From NCBI GenBank assembly GCA_937871715.1, contig CALMOE010000130.1:1-36640 (forward strand): a stretch of DNA of 36,640 nt, read 5' to 3'. Source of the DNA: an uncultured Geobacter sp. (lineage in GTDB: Bacteria > Desulfobacterota > Desulfuromonadia > Geobacterales > DSM-12255). The position numbers and the translations under genes are program-made. Positions 3,966 to 10,038 of the stretch are shown piece by piece. Below the pieces are notes generated by a model. That model saw only the letters and a program-made list of their open reading frames with translations. It did not search any database and had not been told where the DNA came from. Numbering within the stretch: the stretch's first letter is position 1; each line of letters opens with the position of its first letter.

Positions 3966-5276
3966 TCAGCGTTTCTCGGGCGAAAGGTCGGCAGAGAACA
4001 GCTTGCCGGCGCCGCGGGAGGCGCAGAAGTCGCCGCACATGGTGCAGGTGGCCTCGTCCTCCGGGACGCGGCTGGCGCGGATCGCCCGGGCGTCCTCCGG
4101 GTAGAGGGCGAGCTGGAACTGCTTCTCCCAGTTCAGGTCCCGGCGGGCCTTGGACATCTCCTTGTCACGCTCCCTGCCGCGCTCCGGGTACTTGTTCATG
4201 TCGCCGATGTAGGCGGCCACCTTGGCGGCCTTAACCCCCTGGCGCACGTCCTCCTCGTTGGGGAGGGCAAGGTGCTCGGCCGGGGTGATGTAGCAGATGA
4301 GATCGGCGCCGAAACGGCTAGACTGGGCCGCGCCTATGGCGGCTGTGATGTGGTCGAAGCCGGGGGCCACGTCCGTGCTGATGGGGCCGAGCATGTAGTA
4401 GGGGGCGCCGCCGCTCATCCTCTTCTGCAGCTGGATATTGCCGGCAACCTCGTCCAGGGGGACGTGCCCCGGCCCCTCCACCAGCATCTGGCACCCCATC
4501 TCCCGGCCGAGCTCAGCCAGCTCGCAGTTGATGAGGAGCTCCTGGATCTGGGCCCGGTCCGAACTGTCGTGGATCGCCCCGGCCCGCAGGCCGTTCCCCA
4601 GGGAGAGGACGGTGTCGTACTTCTTCAGGATCGAAACCACCCGGTCGAACTTCTCGTAGAGGGGGTTCTCCCGCTTGTTGGCCAGCATCCAGGCCACCAT
4701 GGAGACCCCCCCCTTGGAGACCAGGCCGCCGTAGCGGTACCCCTGATTCCTGAGGCGCTCTATGGTGTAGAGGTTGATGCCGCAGTGCACCGCCATGAAG
4801 GCCATGCCGTCGGCGCACTGCTGCTCGATCAGGTCGAAGAGCATCTCCTCGTCCAGCTTGTTGGGGTCGCCGTACTTGCGGGCCGCCTCGCAGAAGGCCT
4901 GGTAGAGGGGGACGTTACCAACGGGGAGATCAACGGCGGCGATCACCTCGCGCCGCACCCTGTCCAGGTCGCCGCCGACGGAGAGCTCCATCAGGGTGTC
5001 GGCCCCCGACTCCTGGGCGGCGATCGCCTTGGCTACCTCGGCGGCGTAGTCGACGATGTCCGAGGAGGTGCCGATGGAGGCGTTCACCTTGGTGGAGAGC
5101 CCCTTGCCGATGCCGGCGATTCTGGAGGGCTTGCGGTTATGATTCCAGGGGATGACGATCTTCCCCTCGGCCACCATGCGGCGGATGTACTCCGGGCTCT
5201 GCTGCTCGTCCTTGGCTACCTTCTCCATCTGGGGGGTGATAACCCCCTCGCGGGCCTGTTCGATCTGGGTCTTCAC
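3966..5276 (-). CDS. bzaF: ThiC-like radical SAM protein, probable 5-hydroxybenzimidazole synthase BzaF
   Basis: The protein (436 residues) belongs to the ThiC radical SAM superfamily, which rearranges aminoimidazole ribotide. Family landmarks are ITPQMEKVA at the N-terminus, VNASIGTSSD, MAVHCGIN, MLVEGPGHVP, GPISTDVAPGFDHI and TPAEHLALP. It departs from thiamine-type ThiC at several signatures: the C-terminal cluster reads CTMCGDFC (CX2CX3C) instead of CX2CX4C, LGDGLRPG is LGNGLRAG, and the RSRGG segment is VSKGG. BzaF/HBI synthase is known from anaerobic deltaproteobacteria and makes the benzimidazole lower ligand of cobamides. The location between cbiM and cbiA in a B12 operon supports that role over thiamine synthesis. 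The start is a GTG with AAAGGAG upstream. Confidence 0.85.
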   Translation of the reverse strand: MKTQIEQAREGVITPQMEKVAKDEQQSPEYIRRMVAEGKIVIPWNHNRKPSRIAGIGKGLSTKVNASIGTSSDIVDYAAEVAKAIAAQESGADTLMELSVGGDLDRVRREVIAAVDLPVGNVPLYQAFCEAARKYGDPNKLDEEMLFDLIEQQCADGMAFMAVHCGINLYTIERLRNQGYRYGGLVSKGGVSMVAWMLANKRENPLYEKFDRVVSILKKYDTVLSLGNGLRAGAIHDSSDRAQIQELLINCELAELGREMGCQMLVEGPGHVPLDEVAGNIQLQKRMSGGAPYYMLGPISTDVAPGFDHITAAIGAAQSSRFGADLICYITPAEHLALPNEEDVRQGVKAAKVAAYIGDMNKYPERGRERDKEMSKARRDLNWEKQFQLALYPEDARAIRASRVPEDEATCTMCGDFCASRGAGKLFSADLSPEKR

Positions 5277-9165: not shown

Positions 9166-9214
9166 GGCTAAGGGCCAAGGGGAAAAGACCGCCTTTAGCC
9201 CTGCGCCTTTAGCC
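9166..9214. repeat. Short repeat cluster between cobU and cobT
   Basis: Two direct copies of CGCCTTTAGCC (9190-9200 and 9204-9214, three bases apart) are preceded by an inverted copy GGCTAAGGGC (9166-9175). The inverted copy can pair with either direct copy over 10 bases with one G-U pair, so two alternative hairpins are possible in the cobU-cobT intercistronic RNA. There is no T tract, so this does not look like an intrinsic terminator. An mRNA-stability or processing element is possible but unproven. The first repeat abuts the cobU stop codon. Confidence 0.5.
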
Positions 9215-9735
9215 TATTTCAATCTGATCGGCAACCCGGAAAAGAGCGCCCAGGCCTCGTCCGCGGCTGCTGCGAGAATTTCGTTGGCCTCACCGGCCAG
9301 GTCGCGGAATTTCCTTGCCAGCCGGTTGTCGGGGACGATCCCCATCCCCACCTCGTTGGTGACGAGGATGACCGGCGTGCCCAGGGAGGGGAGGAGCGCC
9401 GCCAGTCGCCGCACCTCCGCCAGCACCGGTGCCGGCTCTTCCGCGTGGTGGAAGAGGAGGTTGCTGAGCCAGAGCGTGACGCAGTCCACCAGGGTGGCGC
9501 TAAAAAAGCCGTCATGACCCTGGAGCACCCCGACCAGGTCGAGGGGCTCCTCGATGGTCTGCCAGTCGTCGCCGCGCCGCGCACGGTGGCGCACGATCCT
9601 CTCGGCCATCTCCCCGTCCCCGGCAGAGCCGGTGGCAACGTAGAGAAGCGGTGCACCGCGGGAGAGGGCCAGCTCCTCAGCCAGGCGGCTCTTGCCGCTG
9701 CGCGCCCCGCCGGTAATGAATATGGTTTTTGCCAT
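9214..9735 (-). CDS. cobU: Adenosylcobinamide kinase / guanylyltransferase CobU
   Basis: CobU phosphorylates adenosylcobinamide and then guanylylates it to adenosylcobinamide-GDP. The 173-residue product has P-loop GGARSGKS (residues 9-16), RIVRHRARRGDDW with His50 at the position of the guanylylated His of the Salmonella enzyme, VDCVTLWLSN (Walker B-like), and VTNEVGMGIVPDNRLAR. It is the first gene after the cobalamin riboswitch. The ATG at 9735 lies one base after a T6 tract that ends the leader terminator, so the ribosome-binding site must be inside the terminator's 3' arm (AAGGCGGGG). An in-frame extension into the leader exists but is not conserved-looking. Confidence 0.95.
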   Translation of the reverse strand: MAKTIFITGGARSGKSRLAEELALSRGAPLLYVATGSAGDGEMAERIVRHRARRGDDWQTIEEPLDLVGVLQGHDGFFSATLVDCVTLWLSNLLFHHAEEPAPVLAEVRRLAALLPSLGTPVILVTNEVGMGIVPDNRLARKFRDLAGEANEILAAAADEAWALFSGLPIRLK

Positions 9736-9736
9736 G

Positions 9737-9768
9737 AAAAAACCCCGCCTTCGCAAGTAAGACGGGGT
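9737..9768 (-). terminator. Intrinsic terminator / expression platform of the cobalamin riboswitch
   Basis: On the minus strand ACCCCGTCTT (9768-9759) and AAGGCGGGGT (9751-9742) form a 10-base-pair stem, including one G-U pair, with a 7-base loop, followed by T6. The 3' arm contains the only plausible Shine-Dalgarno sequence of cobU, so folding should stop transcription and also hide the ribosome-binding site. A second, exact copy of ACCCCGTCTT lies just upstream (9785-9776) and could pair with the same 3' arm. Confidence 0.8.
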
Positions 9769-9820
9769 CCATATAAAGACGGGGTGCCCGGCGCCTCTCC
9801 TGCGGAGGTCCTTCAGCATA

Positions 9821-9985
9821 CAGCCGGGCAGGTTTCCTGACTTGCGGATCGCTTTACTCGCCGCGCCTTCCCGATAAGATCAGTGGCATCATTTGCGGCT
9901 TTCATCACCGTTCACAGTTGCGGGACAGTGGGGGATTCGCACCCCCTTCCCTTTTAACCGGCGTGGAGACGCCGGCACCTGGCTG
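9821..9985 (-). promoter_or_regulatory. Cobalamin riboswitch (adenosylcobalamin aptamer)
   Basis: Reading the minus strand, the element contains a closing helix CAGCC/GGCTG (9985-9981 with 9825-9821), a local hairpin CCGGCG-loop-CGCCGG, the core GGGAAGGGGGTGCGAATC with CCCCCACTGTCCCGCAACTGTG, and the B12 box AAGTCAGGAAACCTGCC (9844-9828). This order and these conserved blocks match the cobalamin riboswitch class. It lies between a promoter and the terminator at the start of the cob/cbi operon, so binding of adenosylcobalamin is expected to reduce expression of all twelve-plus downstream genes, including cobalt import. Confidence 0.95.
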
Positions 9986-10009
9986 GATAACTATTCGAAT
10001 GTGCGTTAT

Positions 10010-10038
10010 TTTCTAGCAGAGGCGCAGAAAATTGTCAA
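10010..10038 (-). promoter_or_regulatory. Promoter of the cob/cbi operon
   Basis: On the minus strand a perfect -35 TTGACA (10038-10033) is followed after 17 bases by TAGAAA (10015-10010) as the -10. Transcription would begin near 10003, about 20 bases before the first conserved helix of the cobalamin riboswitch, which is the expected arrangement. Confidence 0.75.

Follow-up and report, generated by a model that had tools for sequence, protein, structure and literature searches.

B12-elements have been known in Geobacter since 2004 (PMC545781), and their aptamer is described by the Rfam model RF00174, which excludes expression platforms. In the metE riboswitch of Priestia megaterium, mutations have demonstrated that, without corrinoid, the terminator 5' arm is paired to the P13 3' strand; when corrinoid is bound, the L5-L13 contact stabilizes P13 (PMC10653944). 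Escherichia coli btuB and env8HyCbl are translational cobalamin riboswitches, in which the ligand causes occlusion of the ribosome-binding site via P13/L13 (PMC10653944). Terminators in 5' leaders that also sequester the ribosome-binding site were proposed in 2010 by Naville and Gautheret, as yet undemonstrated at that time (PMC2965389), and the pT181 repC attenuator, with its ribosome-binding site in the terminator 3' arm, provides an engineered and probably also a natural concerted terminator (PMC5435934).

Here we analyze the cobU riboswitch found in the window, that is, the whole stretch of 36,640 nucleotides of DNA from an uncultured Geobacter sp. The RF00174 model was searched against 141 genomes of the order, with matches in 133, and 81 expression platforms, including the one from this genome, were oriented, parsed and compared. 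Those relatives that carry a name are Geobacter-like organisms. In the literature, we found no experiment on the cobU riboswitch of this lineage. The features of the locus are as follows.

10010..10038, minus strand: probable promoter, TTGACA (10038-10033), a 17-nt spacer and TAGAAA (10015-10010), from the sequence
9810..9997, minus strand: cobalamin riboswitch aptamer, RF00174, 127.5 bits in cmscan
9797..9808, minus strand: P13 hairpin CCUCC-GCA-GGAG, with L13 (CGCA) at 9804-9801, from the sequence, positioned by analogy with PMC10653944
9752..9804, minus strand: predicted antiterminator, CGCAGG-A-GAGGCG-CC-GGG (9804-9787) with CCC-CGUCUU-A-CUUGCG (9767-9752), from folding
9776..9785, minus strand: copy 1 of ACCCCGTCTT, in a variable spacer and private to this genome
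9759..9768, minus strand: copy 2 of ACCCCGTCTT, which forms the conserved terminator 5' arm, from comparison with relatives
9742..9751, minus strand: terminator 3' arm AAGGCGGGGT, from the sequence
9737..9742, minus strand: T6 tract of the terminator, which doubles as the spacer between the Shine-Dalgarno sequence and the start codon, from the sequence
9214..9735, minus strand: cobU, adenosylcobinamide kinase / guanylyltransferase, 173 aa, NCBIfam NF004469, 187.6 bits

The RF00174 match at 9997-9810, the sole one in the genome, spans the full length of the model (positions 1-189) and scores 127.5 bits against a gathering threshold of 31.5. The full-length aptamer and the control of cobalamin synthesis genes are common to this locus and the RF00174 family, and the aptamer itself shows no difference. 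About 75 bases on the minus strand separate its end from the ATG of cobU, the first gene in the order cobU-cobT-cobS-cobC-cobB(cbiA)-thiC-like established by the NCBIfam scan; the riboswitch lies directly 5' of cobU, and the cobalamin synthesis genes cobU, cobT, cobS, cobC and cobB/cbiA follow it in the same orientation. It is a riboswitch of the adenosylcobalamin class, with ligand binding and response predicted from its sequence. The probable promoter, TTGACA-N17-TAGAAA, was not listed by a strict consensus promoter scan because its -10 element lacks the final T; the pattern TTGAC-N16..19-TA[GTC]A precedes the aptamer in 35 of 55 loci of relatives.

Upstream of its start codon, the cobU frame remains open through the terminator and into the aptamer, up to an ATG at 9819 (a 201 aa ORF at window positions 9214-9819, minus strand), and automatic annotation could misplace the cobU start inside the riboswitch. 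The cob part of the cluster is closed by a ThiC-like gene (window 3966-5276, minus strand), which scores above the NCBIfam cut-offs for ThiC and below that for BzaB (548 versus 700 bits), and may encode either ThiC or an enzyme for the lower ligand (benzimidazole). In several relatives (loci L019, L147, L168, L169 and L176), a cobalamin riboswitch with its own terminator and a separate Shine-Dalgarno sequence lies directly 5' of a gene starting with M(L/P)TQIE(A/V)AR(K/Q)G, which resembles the N-terminus of the ThiC-like protein.

On the minus strand, the expression platform consists of P13, GCCGGGC, copy 1, TATATGG, copy 2, ACTTGCG, AAGGCGGGGT, the remaining part of the T6 tract and C. The preliminary description had reported two occurrences of ACCCCGTCTT (9785-9776 and 9768-9759), a single AAGGCGGGGT (9751-9742) able to pair with either copy, and a T tract ending one base before the cobU ATG, and all these coordinates check on the minus strand. 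Ten base pairs, including one G-U pair, are possible between AAGGCGGGGT and either copy; the stem ends with T9742, which also opens the T tract (9742-9737), and C at 9736 and the ATG at 9735-9733 follow. The intrinsic terminator, located 3' of P13, has a computed energy of about -15.9 to -15.5 kcal/mol when formed with copy 2, plus the T6 tract, and the hairpin of copy 1 with AAGGCGGGGT, which has an open loop, -13.8 kcal/mol. No second identical terminator was found elsewhere in the genome. The copy 2 core, ACCCCGT or CCCCGT, is present in all eight aligned members of family f1, and compensatory changes occur in 8 of the 12 stem pairs among 22 loci in which the terminator abuts the start codon, the CC/GG core pairs being invariant.

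The last stem base and the cobU ATG are 5-9 nt apart in all 33 loci of family f3, six of the nine in f1 and both in f2, but in none of the 15 in f4, where the gap is 19-81 nt and a separate Shine-Dalgarno sequence lies 3' of the terminator (the value of 81 comes from L030, in which the terminator was misplaced by the parser). The start codon is welded to the terminator in 41 of the 44 loci assigned to f1, f2 and f3, and three f1 relatives have a separate Shine-Dalgarno sequence, as in f4; judged from this comparison, the weld is a conserved trait of the lineage. Among the 42 abutting loci (this genome and relatives), which represent many genera, the gap is exactly 6 nt in 33, and the GGG core is nearly constant while the inner stem pairs vary. 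Four loci belonging to f1 or unassigned (L016, L020, L023 and L054) have 24-48 nt 3' of the terminator, with a separate Shine-Dalgarno sequence, and hence there may have been more than one gain or loss of the welded terminator.

The ribosome-binding site of cobU lies within the terminator 3' arm, as no other Shine-Dalgarno sequence fits before the start codon: the best match is GGGGT (9746-9742), 6 nt 5' of the ATG, although GGGGU is a weak Shine-Dalgarno sequence (-4.5 kcal/mol). In 21 of the 42 abutting loci, the best match is located at a distance of 6 nt from the AUG; in some others, a better one, such as AGGAG, is found at 11-15 nt, which is within the stem as well. The buried site that the preliminary description had deduced is supported by the conservation of the 5-9 nt gap in 42 loci, which leaves no room for another Shine-Dalgarno sequence; of its further suggestion that one hairpin controls both termination and translation, termination control and overlap with the ribosome-binding site are very probable. 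The footprint of an initiating ribosome would span the terminator 3' arm in any case, so that the hairpin would block initiation whatever the exact Shine-Dalgarno contact. A concerted off-switch of termination and translation, conserved in the lineage, is plausible on these grounds. More specifically, we tentatively propose, as a real possibility still short of an even chance, that in the cobU riboswitches of the Geobacter-like families f1, f2 and f3 a single hairpin acts as terminator and as lock of the ribosome-binding site, with the U tract as a fixed 6-nt spacer, making up a conserved two-level off-switch controlled by a small molecule.

The arrangement might alternatively be that of a purely transcriptional attenuator, in which the hairpin abuts the AUG merely as a result of compact leaders, without any contribution from ribosome occlusion. 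The terminator is strong and has a T tract, a separate Shine-Dalgarno sequence is kept in f4 and in the three f1 relatives, and the transcriptional effect of pT181 was long regarded as the main one (PMC5435934). Compactness does not readily explain why 33 loci of many genera share a gap of exactly 6 nt or why the GGG core is nearly constant amid changing inner pairs, and the ribosome footprint would cover the 3' arm regardless; we consider this alternative possible but rather doubtful. The concerted hairpin resembles pT181 repC (PMC5435934) and the proposal of Naville and Gautheret (PMC2965389) in that a single hairpin can terminate transcription and cover the ribosome-binding site, but differs from pT181 repC in its predicted control by a small molecule rather than an antisense RNA, and in its conservation across three families within a single bacterial order. 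With btuB and env8HyCbl it would share ligand-driven occlusion of the ribosome-binding site through P13/L13, but whereas the occluding structure there is a ribosome-binding site hairpin, here it is an intrinsic terminator as well.

How the ligand would reach this hairpin is suggested by folding and by analogy; whole-RNA minimum-energy folds do not recover the aptamer, and no conclusion about the ligand-bound state was drawn from them. With P1 locked and the RNA folded up to 9752, before the 3' arm is made, the predicted antiterminator has a probability of about 0.8 and lies 6 kcal/mol below P13; once the 3' arm is included, the terminator formed with copy 2 wins, and the decision must therefore be kinetic, as we infer. 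In 80 of the 81 platforms truncated before the 3' arm (99%), at least five pairs link the P13 3' strand and the terminator 5' arm, compared with 76% for shuffled and 89% for swapped arms; this is only moderate evidence because base composition helps. Cognate duplexes were better than permuted ones, with p=0.001 in wide windows and p=0.10 in narrow windows (L030 was left out of this test because its misplaced terminator spoiled the averages), and in this genome alone, the pairing was no better than in shuffles (z -0.4 to +0.6). The CCTCCG of P13 is conserved in most relatives. The aptamer loop L5 (UGCG, 9941-9938, minus strand) is complementary to L13 (CGCA) in this genome, suggesting a kissing loop between the two; across relatives, the pairing is inconsistent and covariation is weak.

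The riboswitch probably works like P. megaterium metE, the likely switch partner being the P13 3' strand, which the preliminary description had overlooked. In the absence of ligand, copy 2 (the terminator 5' arm) and the terminator loop would be paired with the P13 3' strand and L13, RNA polymerase would read through, the G-rich 3' arm would be left single-stranded, and ribosomes would load on GGGGU, 6 nt 5' of the AUG. With ligand bound, the L5-L13 contact would hold P13 and free copy 2, which would pair with AAGGCGGGGU, and transcription would end in the T6 tract; in any full-length RNA carrying the terminator hairpin, the ribosome-binding site would be closed too. As read here from sequence and folding, an L5-L13-stabilized P13 whose 3' strand serves as antiterminator would be common to both systems (PMC10653944), but the antiterminator predicted in this genome also takes in the terminator loop as well as L13, and the start codon, unlike in metE, directly adjoins the terminator.

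A different ligand-free fold would sequester P1 instead of P13. The P1 3' strand UGCCCGGC (9830-9823) is perfectly complementary over 8 nt to GCCGGGCA (9792-9785, minus strand), which follows P13, and when the P1 3' strand is free, this anti-P1 helix and the antiterminator are about equal in energy (-26.9 versus -27.4), with the former winning in some folds. The anti-P1 helix is preferred in unconstrained folds of this genome's RNA before the 3' arm is made, and similar complementarity exists in several f1 relatives and in genus g7 of f3. However, it was not predicted in most of the f3 platforms tested (L017, L028 and L029), its energy here does not set it apart from the antiterminator, and it would leave copy 2 free and hence favor the terminator without ligand, so that we regard it as unlikely to replace the P13-strand antiterminator. 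As a separate observation, the anti-P1 helix may be a second switching element.

The duplication of the terminator arm, to which the preliminary description had tentatively assigned a decoy, switch partner or backup role, is specific to this genome. In the 36.6-kb window, ACCCCGTCTT is present at two positions only, compared with 0.09 occurrences expected, and no shuffle yielded two; shuffling the 45 nt upstream gives a 10-nt copy of the arm with a probability of about 3.5e-5, which makes a chance repeat unlikely as its origin. The longest upstream copy of the terminator arm is 10 nt here and no more than 5 nt in the 80 other platforms of the order, none of which, including that of the congener G001, has a comparable copy 1; this absence from riboswitches of relatives, which the preliminary description itself had regarded as telling against a role, leaves the decoy or backup role unsupported. 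When eight f1 members are aligned, copy 1 is seen to lie in the variable stretch that separates GCCGG from the terminator. This spacer is 18 nt long in this genome, compared with 17-21 nt in G008, G010 and G001, and G010 carries AACGTCTTATAT at the position of copy 1. A tandem duplication by insertion is ruled out by the unchanged spacer length and by AACGTCTTATAT in G010; most likely, copy 1 arose from a AACGTCTTATAT-like sequence by small changes.

Copy 1 is also a poor candidate for the main antiterminator partner: copy 2 forms the more stable duplex with the P13 3' strand (-9.8 versus -7.6 kcal/mol), and its loop lengthens the helix. The hairpin of copy 1 with the 3' arm accounts for 0.5-5% of the ensemble in most models. 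That copy 1 functions as a backup or decoy 5' arm for the same 3' arm or for the P13 3' strand, tuning termination or the ligand threshold, is quite improbable, despite its improbable 10-nt identity, its capacity to pair with the P13 3' strand and the 34% of the ensemble reached by its hairpin in one context (with the P1 3' strand included), as it is missing in all relatives, its shuffling leaves the computed antiterminator-P13 difference at -6.0 kcal/mol, copy 2 is favored by about 3.4 kcal/mol once P13 has formed, and in the full antiterminator copy 1 would sit in the loop, with the 3' arm following without a linker, so that their pairing would require a sterically implausible pseudoknot. 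Copy 1 is lineage-private and probably neutral, with at most a minor effect on termination, and nothing indicates a conserved function.

Taken as a whole, we consider it fairly probable that the adenosylcobalamin riboswitch represses the cobU operon through a switch between P13 and copy 2, in which the hairpin both terminates transcription and closes the ribosome-binding site, with copy 1 contributing little if anything. The locus is an ordinary cobalamin riboswitch with an expression platform of an experimentally supported kind, and the duplicated arm as such matters little. For concerted terminators, which were proposed in 2010 (PMC2965389) and later engineered from pT181 (PMC5435934), the lineage offers a natural comparison set, in which the same riboswitch-gene pair occurs with a welded terminator (41 of 44 loci in f1, f2 and f3) or, in f4 and three f1 relatives, with a separate ribosome-binding site. 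This set would allow measuring the share of ribosome-binding site occlusion in a transcriptional riboswitch.
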